53,972 nucleotides of DNA from Gemmatimonadota bacterium (GTDB lineage: Bacteria; Gemmatimonadota; Gemmatimonadetes; Gemmatimonadales; GWC2-71-9): the NCBI GenBank assembly GCA_003169895.1, contig PNAE01000007.1:1795447-1849418 (forward strand), written 5' to 3'. Shown here in pieces: positions 29,057-36,319 of the stretch (position 1 is its first letter; each line of letters starts with the position of its first letter). Below the pieces are notes generated by a model. The model was not told the origin of the DNA, made no database searches, and saw only the letters and a program-made list of their open reading frames with translations. Made by a program: the position numbers and the translations under genes.

Positions 29057-29968
29057 CTACCGCAACTGCACGTTGCCCATCAGCACGTTGAGCGAGTCGA
29101 CCGGGAGATGTCCCACCACGGTCACGATTCGCACGGTGCGGGTGATCTGTCCATCTGGCCCGACGTAATCGGGATGGGTCCGCGACAGCATGCTCGTCGC
29201 GATCCCACTGGCCTGCAGTACCTGGTTCACCGGCGTGATGTCGTCCACCGGGCCTTCGAATACCCAGACCGGGCGGCCGTCGGCAAGTTGCTGGCGAACC
29301 ATGAATACTGGCCGTCCACCGCTGGCGCTCGCCTGCATCCTGACGGTCGCCACCGGAAGACCGCTGACCCGTGCGAGCGATCCGCCGCCCGCCTTCAGCG
29401 CCTCGTCCCAGTTGCTGCTCACCCAGTCTTTCGCGATCACTGGATCAACATCGACCGCGGGGTTCATCATCCGCGGTGCCACCTCGCTCGCGCCGCGTAC
29501 CGGCAATACATGCGGGGTGCCATACGCGCGCGATATCATCACCAAGTCATGGGCGCGCACGGCACCTGAGTCCGAGGTGCTCCGGTCGAATCCACCGAGG
29601 AAAGCGGGCGTCACCAGGCTCGTGGCGAGCTGTGCCGTCGGCTGGGTCCGGGTGGGCTGCAGCGAGAACCAGACGCCGAGGCCCACCACCGCAGCGGCTG
29701 CGGCGGTCAGCCCGCCCGGCAGCCGGCGGCGTGCGGCCCGCGGCGCGACCTGCGGCATGGCAGGGCGGCGAATGCTCCGCGGTGACGCGATCGCCAGCAG
29801 CATCGACGCTCGAGCCCGCACTTCGCCGACCTCTGCGTAGTGCGACCGGCAGATCAGACAGCCGAGCAGGTGCTCGGCGATCTCGATCCGTTGCGGCGGC
29901 GCCAGTTCCCCGTCGCTGTAGGCATGCAGCTCTTCTTCAGGAACGTGCGGTCGCACGCTGCGCTCCAC
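29057..29968 (-). CDS. Anti-sigma factor with zinc-binding domain
   Basis: 303 residues. N-terminal zf-HC2 domain: ELHAYSDGEL then HLLGCLICRSHY, the HX3CX2C zinc motif of ECF anti-sigma factors. One membrane segment (AAAAAVVGLGVWFSL) near residue 100 puts about 180 residues in the periplasm; this part has a PVFMVRQQLADGRPVWVFEG-like beta region of unknown ligand. GTG at 29968 (VERSVRP) is chosen: it has GGAGGAG 5 bases upstream and overlaps the sigma gene by 32 bp, the usual arrangement. It should hold the sigma factor at the membrane until a signal arrives. Confidence 0.85.
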   Translation of the reverse strand: MERSVRPHVPEEELHAYSDGELAPPQRIEIAEHLLGCLICRSHYAEVGEVRARASMLLAIASPRSIRRPAMPQVAPRAARRRLPGGLTAAAAAVVGLGVWFSLQPTRTQPTAQLATSLVTPAFLGGFDRSTSDSGAVRAHDLVMISRAYGTPHVLPVRGASEVAPRMMNPAVDVDPVIAKDWVSSNWDEALKAGGGSLARVSGLPVATVRMQASASGGRPVFMVRQQLADGRPVWVFEGPVDDITPVNQVLQASGIATSMLSRTHPDYVGPDGQITRTVRIVTVVGHLPVDSLNVLMGNVQLR

Positions 29969-30461
29969 GCTGCTCCTCCATGATGTCGTGCGCGGCGACC
30001 AATCGCTTGCGCGCGCGCGCCAAGGTTGTCCCGACGGCGCCAACAGCCAGTCTGGTCTGCTCGGCGATTTCGGGATACGACATGCCGGCGTCCCAGAGGA
30101 GCAGTACCTCACGGTCGCGCGGCGTCAGGGTCGCCAGCGCCCGCTTGACTTCGGCCTCCTGCTCGGCGTGATCCATCCCTTCCTCGACGTCCTCATGGGC
30201 GGCGGGGGAGGCAATCGGTTCATGCGTTAGGAGGACGAGATGCTTGCGCCGGCGAATGGCCGAACGGGCTTCGTCGCGCGCGATGTTCGCCGCGACCGCG
30301 AAGACCCAGGACCGGGGTTTGTCGGGTTCATGCGCGAGCGCTCGCATGAAGACTTCCTGGGCGAGATCCTCGGCGCGGTCGGCATCCCAGACCTTCCGGT
30401 ACAGGAAGCGGACAACCGCGTCGTATGTTGTCCGGTACAGGCCTTCCAAGTCGAATGCCAT
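29937..30461 (-). CDS. ECF-family RNA polymerase sigma factor
   Basis: 174 residues. Region 2: YRTTYDAVVRFLYRKVWD, AEDLAQEVFMRAL and WVFAVAANIARDEAR for -10 recognition; region 4: LTPRDREVLLLWDAGMSYPEIAE, the -35 helix-turn-helix near residue 125. ATG at 30461 (MAFDLEGLYR) follows GGGAGAG. Coupled with the anti-sigma gene. Upstream, an unusually AT-rich patch (GGTATAATAATATCC on the plus strand, 30481-30495) may hold the promoter -10 element; ECF genes are often autoregulated, but no clear GGAAC-type box is seen. Confidence 0.93.
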   Translation of the reverse strand: MAFDLEGLYRTTYDAVVRFLYRKVWDADRAEDLAQEVFMRALAHEPDKPRSWVFAVAANIARDEARSAIRRRKHLVLLTHEPIASPAAHEDVEEGMDHAEQEAEVKRALATLTPRDREVLLLWDAGMSYPEIAEQTRLAVGAVGTTLARARKRLVAAHDIMEEQRGAQRATARS

Positions 30462-30614
30462 GCCGGCTCTCCCAGGTGCAGGTATAATAATATCCGAGTA
30501 GGAGACGATGGTCGCACGGAAGGATACACATCGTCGGCCACGTCCCATTCAATCCACCCAGTTGGACCGCCCGCTGAGCGCACGGTACTGAATGAGTCTG
30601 GCGGGTGCGTTTCG

Positions 30615-32063: not shown

Positions 32064-32135
32064 CGACGTGAAAGGTGAAACGGGGGCTCCGACGCGACGC
32101 GGAGTCCCCGTCTTACCTCTCACGTTTCACGACGT
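32064..32135. repeat. Repeat-flanked inverted repeat at cupredoxin/PAP2 convergent junction
   Basis: GTGAAAGGTGAAACGGGGGC is mirrored by the complement of the CCGTCTTACCTCTCACGTTTCAC region, nested around the hairpin at 32080-32111. Same sequence family as the blocks at 8661, 10622, 14771 and 49121. It codes for the RKTRDGRRET tail of the PAP2 protein. Confidence 0.75.
32080..32111. terminator. Bidirectional hairpin terminator
   Basis: ACGGGGGCTCCG (32080-32091) pairs with CGGAGTCCCCGT (32100-32111) with one mismatch and an 8-base loop. Nearly the same sequence as the speA/gltA hairpin at 6335-6376. Confidence 0.75.
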
Positions 32136-33034
32136 CCGTCCCTCGTCTTGCGCGTCACAACTCCTGCCACCGTCGCGCCGAGCAGCACGCCCGTCGCGCT
32201 GTCGATGACGTAGTGCATCTGGCAGTACACGACGCCGACGGCGAGGAACGCGGTGGGGACCGCGAGGATCATGGCGAGCCGTCGCGACCCACGCCATGTC
32301 CCAATCACTGCCGCCACCGTCGCCGCGACGTGCGATGAGGGGAATGCGGCGCCATAGGCGCTTCCGCCGCTCAGCGCGGCATAGACCAAGCGTGCCGGCA
32401 GGTTAGCCACGAACGCGCCGCTCGGCCGGGGGAACTCGTAGTACGGTCCCGCGACTGGCAGGAACAGGTAGAAGAGATAGCAGACGAGGTAGGTGGCCAG
32501 CAGGCCATTGAGGTAGCGCTCCAAGGCGTTGCTTCTGCGCTGAAGCAGGAAGAAGATCACCGGCGTGGTCACGATGAGGTAATACGACAGGTACGCCGAA
32601 TGCAGCGTCGCCGACCAGAAGGCGCTCGGATGCGCGCGCCACCAGTCTCGACTGGGCTGCATGCCGAAGACCGCATGCTCGAGCGCCTGGATCTGATGGT
32701 CCCACGTGGGGGCGGCGCCGAAGCGATTGAACACGTCGATGGCGGAGTAGAGCCCGCTGAGCAGCAGCAACGGATAGATGCCGCGCAGGATACGCGTGGT
32801 GGCAGTGAGCGGCGCGTTGGCGAGCAGCCACGCAAGTGCCGGGACGCCAAGGTGCGCCACGAGCACCAGCGCCATGCCGGGCTGATGCAGCCGCGTGGCC
32901 GCGAACACTGCCACGAGCGCGCCGTAGGCCGCCAGCATCCGGTCGACGAGGCGCCAGCCAGCGCGGGTGGCCGGTGTCCCGAGGGGCGAGCCGGAAGTGG
33001 GCGGCGTCAGATCCAGCCCGCTTGGGTGTACCAC
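32120..33034 (-). CDS. PAP2-superfamily membrane enzyme, possible ceramide head-group transferase
   Basis: 304 residues with about six membrane helices. The acid phosphatase/phosphotransferase motifs are YGAAFPSSHVAA near residue 225 and CQMHYVIDSATG near residue 269, giving the two catalytic histidines and an aspartate as in the PAP2/Aur1 (inositolphosphotransferase) group. Such enzymes move or remove phosphate-linked groups on lipids. As fourth gene of a ceramide operon it may add a phospho-head-group to ceramide or act on a lipid phosphate. GTG at 33034 overlaps the reductase gene by 28 bp; ATG at 32938 would cut the protein inside the conserved RLVDRML region. The tail RKTRDGRRET is repeat-derived. 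Confidence 0.8.
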   Translation of the reverse strand: MVHPSGLDLTPPTSGSPLGTPATRAGWRLVDRMLAAYGALVAVFAATRLHQPGMALVLVAHLGVPALAWLLANAPLTATTRILRGIYPLLLLSGLYSAIDVFNRFGAAPTWDHQIQALEHAVFGMQPSRDWWRAHPSAFWSATLHSAYLSYYLIVTTPVIFFLLQRRSNALERYLNGLLATYLVCYLFYLFLPVAGPYYEFPRPSGAFVANLPARLVYAALSGGSAYGAAFPSSHVAATVAAVIGTWRGSRRLAMILAVPTAFLAVGVVYCQMHYVIDSATGVLLGATVAGVVTRKTRDGRRET

Positions 33035-33981
33035 GCCGCGGTGTCGGCGAGCCCGCGCTCGAGGTCCCAGGTCGGCCGCCATCCCGTCGTTGCGATGAAC
33101 GGCGATGGGTCGGCGGTCCACGCGGCCTGATAGAACTCGTGCAGCTTGTCGGGGTGGAGGATGCTCTTCTGCCCCGACACAGCCGCCCACGTCCCGGTCA
33201 CTCCCAACGCCACACGCGCCGCCCAGCGGGGAATTGGCAGCGACAGCGGGGAGCGGTGCAGGGTACGCGCGACGGCGCGGACGATGGCCACGCCGGTGAT
33301 GATCTCGGGATGGTTGATGTAGAAGACGCGGCCCTCGACGCCAGCGGTCGTGCCCGCGAGAACCATCGCGTTGACGAGATCAGTGACGTGAATCAGCGAC
33401 ACCTCCATGGATCCGTCGCCGAACATCGGCGCAACGCCGAAGTTCACCGCCTTGAACAGCGGCAGGAAGCCTTCACGGTCGCGCGGGCCATACACCACGG
33501 GTGGACGGAGGACACACCACGGCAGCGAGGACGCAGCGAGCGCGCGTTCCGCGGCGAGTTTGCTCCGGCCGTACATGGTGACCGGGGTGTCGTCGTCGCT
33601 GGCGACCCTGGGAACGCCGCGCCGTGCCGGCCCGCCGGCCGCCATGGACGAGACGAGCACCACGCGCGGACGCGCGGCCAGGCTGGCGCAGGCGCGCACG
33701 AGGTTGATCGTGCCATCACGATTGGTGGCCATCAACGCCGCCTCGGTCGGCGCGCCGAGCATGGCGGCGACATGGTGCACCACTTGCTGATCGCGGACGG
33801 CGTCGGCCAGCGCGCCGGTGTCGGCCAGATCGCCGGCCACGAGCCGCACGCCCCGCTCGGCGAGTGCCGCCGCGCGTAGCGGGGAGCGCACCAGTGCGGT
33901 CACGGTGTCGCCTTGGGCGAGCAGCCGATCGACGAGGTGACCGCCGACGAAGCCGGTCGCCCCGGTGACCAGCACCTTCAT
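33007..33981 (-). CDS. cerR: NAD(P)-dependent ceramide reductase (epimerase/dehydratase fold)
   Basis: 324 residues of the extended SDR family: GATGFVGGHLVDRLL near residue 7, VVHHVAAMLG, LVSSMAAGGPA near 120 and the YGRSKLAAERAL motif with catalytic Tyr and Lys near 152-156, then LRPPVVYGPRD. In Caulobacter a protein of this family (CerR) reduces 3-oxo-ceramide after SPT and the ceramide synthase; the position directly after the GNAT gene supports the same role here. It overlaps the GNAT gene by 4 bp (ATGA). By sequence alone other SDR substrates are possible. Confidence 0.85.
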   Translation of the reverse strand: MKVLVTGATGFVGGHLVDRLLAQGDTVTALVRSPLRAAALAERGVRLVAGDLADTGALADAVRDQQVVHHVAAMLGAPTEAALMATNRDGTINLVRACASLAARPRVVLVSSMAAGGPARRGVPRVASDDDTPVTMYGRSKLAAERALAASSLPWCVLRPPVVYGPRDREGFLPLFKAVNFGVAPMFGDGSMEVSLIHVTDLVNAMVLAGTTAGVEGRVFYINHPEIITGVAIVRAVARTLHRSPLSLPIPRWAARVALGVTGTWAAVSGQKSILHPDKLHEFYQAAWTADPSPFIATTGWRPTWDLERGLADTAAWYTQAGWI

Positions 33982-35114
33982 GTGGGGCGGTCGAGAATGC
34001 GGAAGGTCTGGTACGGAGTAAAGCCGGCCTTGCTGAGGCCCTGGATGATGCCAACGTTGTCTTCGAGCAGCCAGCTCGCCTCGCCCCAGCCTGCGCCGCG
34101 TTCGCCGGCCTTGGTCCACAGCCAGTGATACAGTGCGGAGTCGATCCCCTTGCCACGCCATTCGGGCAGCACGCCGAGCAGCAGCACGCGGGTCCGGGCG
34201 AGCTTCTTCATCTTGAGCTTGTACATCATTGTCAGCGATGCCGGAAACATGCGGCCATTGCGATTGTTGCGCAGCAGCTCGTTGAGGTCCGGCAGGGCGA
34301 GGGCAAACGCGATCGGCTTGCCGTCATGTTCGACAAACGGCACCAGCTCGGGAATCACCACCGGCTTGAACGCTTTGGCCAGCGCGTCAATCTCCGCATC
34401 GGTCATGGGGATGAAGCCCCAGTTGTCTTCCCAGCACGCATTGTACAGGTGTTTCACCAACTCGACCTCGGCGGCAAACTTCTTGAGGTTGAGGGGCCGG
34501 ATGGTGATGCCATAGCGTTGCTTCAGGAGTTTGACCGCGCGCTCGGTACGCTCGACCGGCTTGATCGGGGCCAGGAGCGATCCGCCCTGCAGTGCGACGA
34601 GGTCCTTCGCCTTCCTGAAGCCGGCAGTCTCGAGGAGCGTGAGATAGTAGGGCGGATTGTGGGGCATCATGATCGAATTGGGCGTGTCGAACCCCTTGAT
34701 CAACAAGCCACATTCGTCATTCACCGAAAACGACATCGGACCGCGCAACGTGTCCAGGCCGCGTGCCTTGATCCAGTCGCTCGCGGTATCGAGCATCGCC
34801 GCTGCTACGGCGAAGTCGTTGATTGTCTCGAAGAAGCCGAAGAACCCGACCTTGTCATGGTGGTATTCGTTGTGCAGCCGGTTGTGAATGGCCGCGATCC
34901 GCCCCACCACTTCGCCGTCGCGCTCGGCGATGAAGTAGTCGGCTTCGGCGTGCTGGAAGAACGGGTTGTGGGCGCGGTCGAGGAGTTTCTTGACTTCGGC
35001 GCGAAACGGCGGGACCCAATTGAGGTCCCGCCGATGGAGCCGATATGGCAGGTCGATGAACCGGGCCAGATCCCTGGCCGACTCGACGCGCCGGATCGCC
35101 GGCGCGGTGCTCAG
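33978..35114 (-). CDS. bcerS: GNAT-fold bacterial ceramide synthase (N-acyltransferase)
   Basis: 378 residues by my translation upstream of the first ATG/GTG-type start. The N-terminus FIDLPYRLHRRDLNWVPPF and NPFFQHAEADYFIAERDG are conserved in this acyltransferase family, so the protein must begin near the CTG at 35114, which overlaps the serine palmitoyltransferase stop as CTGA. The GTG at 34910 would remove these 68 residues. Later: GPMSFSVNDECGLLIKGFD, ALPDLNELLRNNRNG, LLGVLPEWRGKGIDSALY (acyl-CoA-binding turn). In Caulobacter the bacterial ceramide synthase is a GNAT-family protein; this operon position matches. It would N-acylate 3-ketosphinganine. Confidence 0.8.
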   Translation of the reverse strand: MSTAPAIRRVESARDLARFIDLPYRLHRRDLNWVPPFRAEVKKLLDRAHNPFFQHAEADYFIAERDGEVVGRIAAIHNRLHNEYHHDKVGFFGFFETINDFAVAAAMLDTASDWIKARGLDTLRGPMSFSVNDECGLLIKGFDTPNSIMMPHNPPYYLTLLETAGFRKAKDLVALQGGSLLAPIKPVERTERAVKLLKQRYGITIRPLNLKKFAAEVELVKHLYNACWEDNWGFIPMTDAEIDALAKAFKPVVIPELVPFVEHDGKPIAFALALPDLNELLRNNRNGRMFPASLTMMYKLKMKKLARTRVLLLGVLPEWRGKGIDSALYHWLWTKAGERGAGWGEASWLLEDNVGIIQGLSKAGFTPYQTFRILDRPT

Positions 35115-36319
35115 ATGACCCCCAGCTCCTTGCCGATGCGTCCGAAGGCCTCGAGCGCGAAATCGATCTGCTGATCGCTATGCGTGGCCATCACGCTGGT
35201 GCGCAACCGGCACTGGTTGGCCGGCACTGCCGGCGGGCAAACCGGGTTGGTGAACACGCCTTCGTCGAACAGCCTCCGCCAGAACCGGAACGTGGTCTCG
35301 AGCGGCCCAACGAGGACCGGAACGATCGGGGACTGGGTCGGCCCGATCTCGAAGCCGAGCGAACGGAAACCATTCTGCAGTCGCTTGGCGTTCACCCACA
35401 GCGCGTCACGCCGCTCCGGCTCCAGTTGCATTACTTCCAGCGCCGCGAGGACGCCGGCGGTATTGGCCGGCGGCAGCGAGGCGGTGAAAATGAACGGCCG
35501 GGAGTGGTGCTTGAGGAAGTGGATCACCGATTCATCTGCAGCAAGGAAGCCGCCGACCGATGCCAGCGACTTGGAGAACGTGCCCGCGATGATGTCGACG
35601 TCCGCCTGCATTCCGAAATGAGCGCCGGTGCCTTCGCCGCGGGGACCGAGCACGCCGAGCGCGTGCGCGTCGTCGACCGCCAGCGCCGCGCCGTACTTCC
35701 TGGCGATCCTGACCAGTTCCGGAATATCGGCGATGTCACCTTCCATCGAATAGATGCCGTCCACCACGATCATCGTGCCCTTGCCGCTCGTGTTGCGATC
35801 GAGCAGGCGGGACAGGTGAGCCATGTCGGCGTGGTTGAACCGCTGCGTCTCGCCGAACGCCAGCTTGGCGCCGTCGACGATGCAGGCGTGATCGAGCTTG
35901 TCGAGGTAGACGGTTTCGTTGCGGCCCAGCAGCCCCGAAATCAGGCCGAGGTTGGCGCCGTAGCCGGTGGAGAAGACAATGCATGCTTCCTTGCCGAGGA
36001 ACTCGGCCAAGGCAGCCTCGAGCCGCTCGTGCAGGTCGAGCGAGCCATTGAGGAAGCGCGAACCGGTGCATCCGGAGCCATACCGGTGCAACGCTTTGGC
36101 GGCCGCTTCGAGTACCTTGGGGTGATGGGTGAGCCCGAGGTAGTTGTTCGAGCCCAGCATGAGGCGCTTCTTGCCTTCGATGACGACGTCGGTGTCGTCC
36201 GACTCGGAAATCGCTTTGAAATAGGGGTAAAGTCCGGCAGCTTGTACTTCGCGCGCTGCCGTGAAATTCCGGCACTTGTCGAAGAGTGCCACCTGGGACT
36301 GGAGCGTCTCGGTCGCCAC
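35111..36319 (-). CDS. spt: Serine palmitoyltransferase (alpha-oxoamine synthase family)
   Basis: 402 residues, GTG start. PLP enzyme that condenses serine with palmitoyl-CoA to 3-ketosphinganine, the committed step of sphingolipid synthesis. Motifs: MLGSNNYLGLT near residue 54, YGSGCTGSRFLNG near 80, LDHACIVDGA near 142, VVDGIYSMEGD near 182, AVDDAHALGVLG near 216, and GTFSKSLASVGGF with the PLP lysine near 248. The TGSRFLNG motif and the operon argue for SPT rather than 2-amino-3-ketobutyrate ligase or BioF, but sequence alone cannot fully exclude these. Head of a four-gene operon with overlaps throughout. Confidence 0.88.
   Translation of the reverse strand: MATETLQSQVALFDKCRNFTAAREVQAAGLYPYFKAISESDDTDVVIEGKKRLMLGSNNYLGLTHHPKVLEAAAKALHRYGSGCTGSRFLNGSLDLHERLEAALAEFLGKEACIVFSTGYGANLGLISGLLGRNETVYLDKLDHACIVDGAKLAFGETQRFNHADMAHLSRLLDRNTSGKGTMIVVDGIYSMEGDIADIPELVRIARKYGAALAVDDAHALGVLGPRGEGTGAHFGMQADVDIIAGTFSKSLASVGGFLAADESVIHFLKHHSRPFIFTASLPPANTAGVLAALEVMQLEPERRDALWVNAKRLQNGFRSLGFEIGPTQSPIVPVLVGPLETTFRFWRRLFDEGVFTNPVCPPAVPANQCRLRTSVMATHSDQQIDFALEAFGRIGKELGVI

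Follow-up and report, generated by a model that had tools for sequence, protein, structure and literature searches.

The 53,972-nt stretch of the Gemmatimonadota genome analyzed here (the window) contains four genes, all on the minus strand within positions 32120–36319, that may together direct the synthesis of a phosphosphingolipid. In the order of transcription, they encode a putative serine palmitoyltransferase (SPT), a tandem-GNAT N-acyltransferase resembling ceramide synthase (CerS, also termed bCerS), an extended short-chain dehydrogenase/reductase (SDR) resembling ceramide reductase (CerR), and a PAP2-family membrane protein resembling yeast Aur1 (Table 1). The original prediction, made from the letters alone, had described four minus-strand genes with overlapping ends, and they lie where it placed them. 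The motifs it quoted, TGSRFLNG and GTFSKSLASVGGF in SPT and YGRSK in the SDR, were confirmed, and the GNAT and PAP2_3 domains were found. The gene set and positions thus stand, while two gene starts required revision.

Table 1. Features of the candidate ceramide operon and its 3' flank (positions in the window).
Feature	Position	Strand	Remarks
spt, serine palmitoyltransferase (predicted)	35111..36319	-	402 aa, GTG start
cerS-like tandem-GNAT N-acyltransferase	33978..35114	-	378 aa, CTG start overlapping spt stop
cerR-like extended SDR reductase	33007..33981	-	324 aa, ATGA overlap with cerS stop
Aur1-like PAP2_3 membrane enzyme, putative inositol-phosphoceramide synthase	32120..33010	-	296 aa, CTG start overlapping cerR stop
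CTGA overlap, cerS start CTG / spt stop TGA	35111..35114	-	in-frame NTGA kept in 32/32 family loci
ATGA overlap, cerR start / cerS stop	33978..33981	-	in-frame overlap kept in 31/32 family loci
CTGA overlap, PAP2 start / cerR stop	33007..33010	-	read directly from sequence
Long stable hairpin 3' of operon	32066..32125		RNA fold -41.2 kcal/mol, z -6.7

The GNAT open reading frame as listed (34910–33978, 310 aa) falls 68 aa short of the full protein. Its frame remains open back to 35178, and the part above 34910 contains no ATG, GTG, or TTG. The N-terminus conserved among family members begins at the CTG at 35114, whose TG forms part of the SPT stop codon. Phe19, Pro51, Phe52, Gly71, and Arg72 of the N-terminal extension occupy invariant columns of the family alignment, and the predicted structure contains an ordered first strand at residues 6–9. 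Since no alternative start is available and the N-terminus is conserved, we infer that cerS starts at this CTG; automatic gene calling will clip the ceramide synthase here by the missing residues. The PAP2 gene most likely starts at the CTG at 33010, overlapping the SDR stop, rather than at the far-upstream GTG at 33190. With the corrected starts, all three junctions become 4-nt overlaps (CTGA, ATGA, and CTGA). Among the 32 family loci compared, the SPT–GNAT junction always retains the in-frame NTGA (CTG in 25 and TTG in 7, never ATG or GTG), and the GNAT–SDR junction retains its overlap in all but one (GTG in 19 and ATG in 12). The SDR–PAP2 junction is more variable among relatives. The first base of the cerS start, C or T, is also the third base of the SPT terminal codon, mostly an isoleucine ATC or ATT. 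The SPT/GNAT frame relation and the conserved gene order are not due to chance, because the frame is the same in every locus and the order is kept at approximately 40–90% protein identity. The near-obligate overlaps suggest that the translation of each enzyme is coupled to that of the preceding gene, and the CTG or TTG start of cerS is apparently tolerated through re-initiation at the overlapping stop. Fusion of SPT with GNAT through a –1 frameshift was also considered; the junction contains no slippery sequence, and termination followed by re-initiation is preferred.

The best NCBIfam model for the first protein is NF047600 (SPT, CFB type), whose score of 520.6 bits exceeds those of the other SPT models, bioF, and Kbl and lies below the curated cut-off of 640. 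In comparisons with enzymes of solved structure, it scores 416 bits against the S. multivorum SPT, as compared with 273 against Kbl, 264 against cysteate fatty acyltransferase (CFAT), and 207 against BioF. In a tree of 50 sequences, it falls within the group of Sphingomonas, Bacteroides, E. coli-cluster, and Roseomonas SPTs, apart from Kbl and BioF. Kbl, BioF, ALAS, and CFAT are thus all more distant from the protein than SPT is. The residues binding pyridoxal phosphate and serine in the S. multivorum SPT, namely Asn52, Ser81, His138, Asp210, His213, Thr241, Ser243, and Lys244 (PMC10196870), are all conserved in the alignment. These results support the assignment of the first protein as a serine palmitoyltransferase, an activity predicted by homology. 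A Kbl- or BioF-type enzyme, in a cluster whose product would not be a sphingolipid, could be imagined from the common alpha-oxoamine synthase family and the 37% identity to Kbl. The tree and the hidden Markov model (HMM) scores speak against this identity, L004 of the same genome is a Kbl-like gene in its own right (40% to Kbl), and we regard this explanation as extremely improbable. Grouping with BioF or Kbl was also the outcome on which the original prediction had staked its SPT assignment, and neither the tree nor the profiles place the protein there. A capnine-type sulfonolipid pathway, in which the first enzyme would use cysteate and the GNAT and SDR would act on capnine, is very unlikely. 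The sulfonolipid and sphingolipid routes are postulated to be parallel (PMC9304779), but the solved CFAT scores far below SPT, and a sulfonate without the C1 hydroxyl would make an Aur1-like head-group enzyme senseless. In seven loci of other Gemmatimonadota (L076, L077, L078, L084, L086, L092, and L096), a distinct alpha-oxoamine synthase, 34–37% identical to SPT and forming its own clade (100), adjoins or lies near a GNAT gene. This enzyme may use another amino acid.

The references for CerS and CerR were genes of Caulobacter-type clusters on annotated plasmids of Sphingomonas parapaucimobilis, E. coli, and Roseomonas; they are cluster orthologues, and the Caulobacter protein itself is not among them. 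The S. parapaucimobilis cluster reads cerR-acp-spt ... lptF lptG ... GNAT, and in the E. coli cluster yghO adjoins aasR-, cerR-, acp-, and spt-like genes. All three reference clusters match the organization of the ceramide clusters in Rhodobacteria (PMC9386255, PMC11324152). The window GNAT is homologous over more than 90% of its length to the Sphingomonas, Roseomonas, and E. coli YghO cluster proteins, with 34–40% identity. It forms a clade (100) with these three, separate from a Bacteroides GNAT, and its AlphaFold2 (AF2) model shows a tandem-repeat GNAT with the architecture of mycothiol synthase and N-myristoyltransferase. These observations support a ceramide synthase, which would catalyze the N-acylation of 3-ketosphinganine or sphinganine. 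The SDR matches the Epimerase/SDR Pfam family and is 34% identical to the Sphingomonas CerR. An HMM of the cassette SDRs scores the CerR references at 238 and 220 bits, versus 135 for the best paralogue in the same genome and 57 for HldD; the SDR is thus closer to CerR than to the other SDRs of its genome. It contains the NAD-binding TGATGFVG (TGxxGxxG) and the catalytic Ser-Tyr-Lys residues (VSS and YGRSK), and its identification as a ceramide reductase, with the reductase activity predicted, is supported. CerR of Caulobacter is periplasmic (PMC11087976). No signal peptide is visible in the window SDR sequence, because the Rossmann motif begins at the N-terminus. The original prediction would have been overturned by GNAT and SDR proteins outside the ceramide synthase and reductase clades; both fall with their counterparts from the Caulobacter-type clusters.

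The fourth protein matches Pfam PF14378 (PAP2_3). The P-S-x-H and H-Y-x-x-D motifs, both present in the window protein, do not vary among 64 homologues. The NCBIfam model of phosphoinositol dihydroceramide synthase, NF052609, matches residues 69–277 at 20.4 bits (E 2.8e-4), far below its cut-off of 480; the protein is therefore classed as Aur1-like and falls outside that equivalog family. A profile built from ten homologues matches yeast AUR1 over 220 positions, whereas it matches PgpB over the last 75 only. The AlphaFold2 model (pLDDT 80) finds Aur1 as its best fold (Z 18.5 over 257 residues and Z 18.2 over 259 residues), ahead of LpxE (Z 15.5 over 161 residues) and human SMSr (Z 12.4 over 193 residues). 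Aur1 is the sole ceramide enzyme that aligns across the whole model. A rather improbable alternative is that the operon has captured a PAP2 protein with no role in ceramide synthesis, acting as a lipid phosphatase or phosphatidylglycerophosphatase. The protein belongs to the PAP2 superfamily, and LpxE and PgpB-type phosphatases have the same C-terminal catalytic core, but the alignment of LpxE and PgpB is confined to residues about 101–296, while that of Aur1 extends to the N-terminal helices. In addition, the protein lacks the Arg of SRxxxxxH, the phosphatase motif C3, and its gene adjoins cerR or cerS in 44 loci and in other phyla as well. A plain phosphatase is disfavored by the fold match. 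The model instead supports a protein built like inositol-phosphoceramide (IPC) synthase, that is, a putative phosphoceramide synthase that would transfer phosphoinositol. The head-group step of the original prediction is upheld and narrowed to this Aur1-like type by the profile and the fold.

The head-group donor was considered in light of the source genome. Away from the operon, at G000 C5:34805-36632, a phosphatidylinositol-phosphate (PIP) synthase-like gene lies directly upstream of a myo-inositol-phosphate synthase gene. The Bacteroides IPC pathway likewise has a PIP synthase and an inositol-phosphate synthase (PMC8791184, PMC9246714). Among the cassette-bearing genomes, the in-operon PAP2 gene never occurs without inositol-phosphate synthase: 44 genomes have both, 10 have the synthase only, and 2 have neither. 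Phosphatidylinositol is most likely the donor, and phosphatidylethanolamine (PE) is the main alternative. In the latter case, the first three genes would still yield dihydroceramide, and the PAP2 enzyme would transfer phosphoethanolamine (or phosphoglycerol) to form ceramide-phosphoethanolamine (CPE). The PAP2 fold is of the transferase type, Aur1- or SMS-like, and Bacteroides makes ethanolamine-phosphoceramide (EPC) with no EPC synthase homologue found there (PMC8791184). However, the CPE-making human SMSr aligns less well than Aur1, the Bacteroides model of phosphoinositol dihydroceramide synthase gives a match that is weak but spans most of its length, and the PIP-synthase/inositol-phosphate-synthase pair is present. 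We therefore consider transfer from PE unlikely, although it is the strongest of the competing explanations.

In the proposed pathway, SPT would condense serine with a fatty acyl thioester to 3-ketosphinganine. The acyl donor is probably acyl-CoA, because the SPT belongs to the Bacteroidetes type and the operon has no dedicated acpR or aasR beside it. The tandem-GNAT CerS would N-acylate 3-ketosphinganine and CerR would reduce the 3-keto group; even in Caulobacter it is unsettled which of the two steps comes first. The Aur1-like enzyme would then move a phospho-head-group from a glycerophospholipid to (dihydro)ceramide through its His-His-Asp site, predicted at His227, His266, and Asp270 of the 296-aa protein, and phosphatidylinositol as the donor would give IPC. 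On balance, we favor, with some reservation, a single translationally coupled operon that makes dihydroceramide and converts it to IPC, the enzymatic activities, product, donor, and coupling all being deduced from the sequences and models. Several findings weigh against this interpretation. The SPT is divergent and lies outside the NCBI Bacteroidetes equivalog, the sub-clade and deeper branches of the SDR are moderately supported with some unrelated long branches nearby, and in sequence the PAP2 protein resembles AUR1 weakly (E about 0.002). Myo-inositol-phosphate synthase occurs in 226 of the 249 sampled genomes of the phylum and is hence permissive only, and its association with the PAP2 gene is weak (44/0 versus 10/2, Fisher p 0.043, uncorrected for relatedness). 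PE is also an available donor, because a phosphatidylserine (PS) decarboxylase gene is present beside a CDP-alcohol phosphatidyltransferase gene in the source genome. The earlier claim that the organism makes ceramide is largely supported: the homology of SPT, CerS, and CerR agrees with it, and production itself is predicted from the genes.

The gene order was read in 81 loci of the phylum, and the GNAT family occurs in 144 of the 249 sampled genomes. SPT-GNAT-SDR-PAP2 is the commonest order (40/81), followed by variants such as SDR-SPT-GNAT-PAP2. Within the window's family, it is found in 31 of the 35 loci; the exceptions are two second GNAT copies, one locus without PAP2, and one without SPT nearby. 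A scan of named genomes located all four genes in this order in Candidatus Palauibacter (Gemmatimonadota), in an Acidobacteriota metagenome-assembled genome (MAG; L211, where the profile hits are spaced by 6, 6, and –15 nt), and in a KSB1 MAG (L188). The spt-GNAT-SDR order was located in Rubrobacter, Trueperaceae, and Myxococcaceae. The SDR is divergent in many Ignavibacteriota and Bacteroidota relatives. The original prediction had seen a whole pathway packed into one gene order; the order is indeed conserved, but it is not unique to the source organism. Second GNAT paralogues without SPT nearby are present at L082 (G198) and L093 (G103), in genomes that also hold a cassette-linked GNAT. On a mobilizable linear plasmid of Streptomyces sp. 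NBC_01001 (L137, 4748-9274), spt-GNAT-SDR genes with 4-nt overlaps are followed by a condensation-domain gene, and a ceramide-like natural product pathway is possible there. On a Rubrobacter radiotolerans plasmid (L120, 6701-12293), the same three genes precede a lipoteichoic acid (LTA)-synthase-family gene close to a CRISPR-Cas locus, and this LTA-type enzyme could add phosphoglycerol to ceramide. Replacement of lipopolysaccharide by sphingolipids was considered and found no signal: LpxC is present in the source genome and in 242 of the 249 phylum genomes.

Downstream of the operon, the hairpin lies between the convergent PAP2 gene (minus strand) and a plastocyanin-family gene (plus strand), and is a probable shared terminator of the two. 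It was not among the results of the simple terminator scan, which misses it because a T-run is lacking. An M6-peptidase gene is located upstream in the opposite orientation, and a scan for a consensus sigma-70 promoter gave no match. A pair encoding an extracytoplasmic function (ECF)-type sigma factor and a zinc-finger anti-sigma factor lies nearby, at 29057-30548.

If the proposed pathway is correct, sphingolipids are predicted in many Gemmatimonadota, a phylum common in soil. IPC (or CPE if PE donates) would then count among the standard lipids of this phylum, for which sphingolipids are not known from the literature searched; the search found no paper on Gemmatimonadota sphingolipid genes, subscription papers being mostly outside its reach. 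The one-operon cassette would also allow the disputed order of acylation and reduction, and the identity of bacterial head-group transferases, to be tested in E. coli.

Comparison with known systems places the operon among several partial counterparts. The Caulobacter crescentus/rhodobacterial cluster (aasR, cerR, acpR, spt, and cerS) has orthologous SPT, GNAT CerS, and SDR CerR, as judged from the homologous genes of the Sphingomonas and E. coli clusters. There, cerS is transcribed separately and the acyl-ACP used by SPT is a dedicated one (PMC11324152, PMC9386255), whereas the window joins spt, cerS, and cerR head to tail by overlaps, lacks acpR and aasR, and adds an Aur1-like gene in fourth place. 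A 2024 paper stated that cerS is "always" in an operon other than that of spt and cerR (PMC11324152). This rule is not general: the window operon contradicts it, together with the salvage-pathway argument drawn from it. Bacteroides thetaiotaomicron (BT_0870 spt; BT_1522-1526 inositol-lipid operon) has the same NCBIfam type of SPT as the window, and possesses the Aur1-type IPC/phosphoinositol-dihydroceramide synthase BT_1522, a PIP synthase, and an inositol-phosphate synthase (PMC9246714, PMC8791184). Its IPC synthase gene is grouped with the inositol genes and not with spt; in the source genome, the Aur1-like gene stands with the ceramide genes and the inositol genes are elsewhere. Yeast AUR1 shares the full-length fold and the His-His-Asp motifs with the PAP2 protein, which differs in being bacterial, with 16% identity and no Kei1-like partner seen. 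Cassettes of Rubrobacter, Trueperaceae, Myxococcaceae, and Streptomyces have the first three genes in the window's order but another fourth gene or none (LTA-synthase-type in Rubrobacter, condensation-domain in Streptomyces); the PAP2 gene is either missing or else divergent, on the opposite strand (L196 and L208). The odds seem to us evenly balanced that the four genes form a translationally coupled unit for the complete pathway, which starts with serine and ends with the phosphosphingolipid, that the last enzyme represents a new, Aur1-like class of transferases adding head groups to ceramide in bacteria, and that a large proportion of the Gemmatimonadota, together with a few further phyla, carries this unit. 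The operon thus represents a known pathway in a new arrangement, and probably constitutes a new sub-class of that pathway, rather than a new kind of system.

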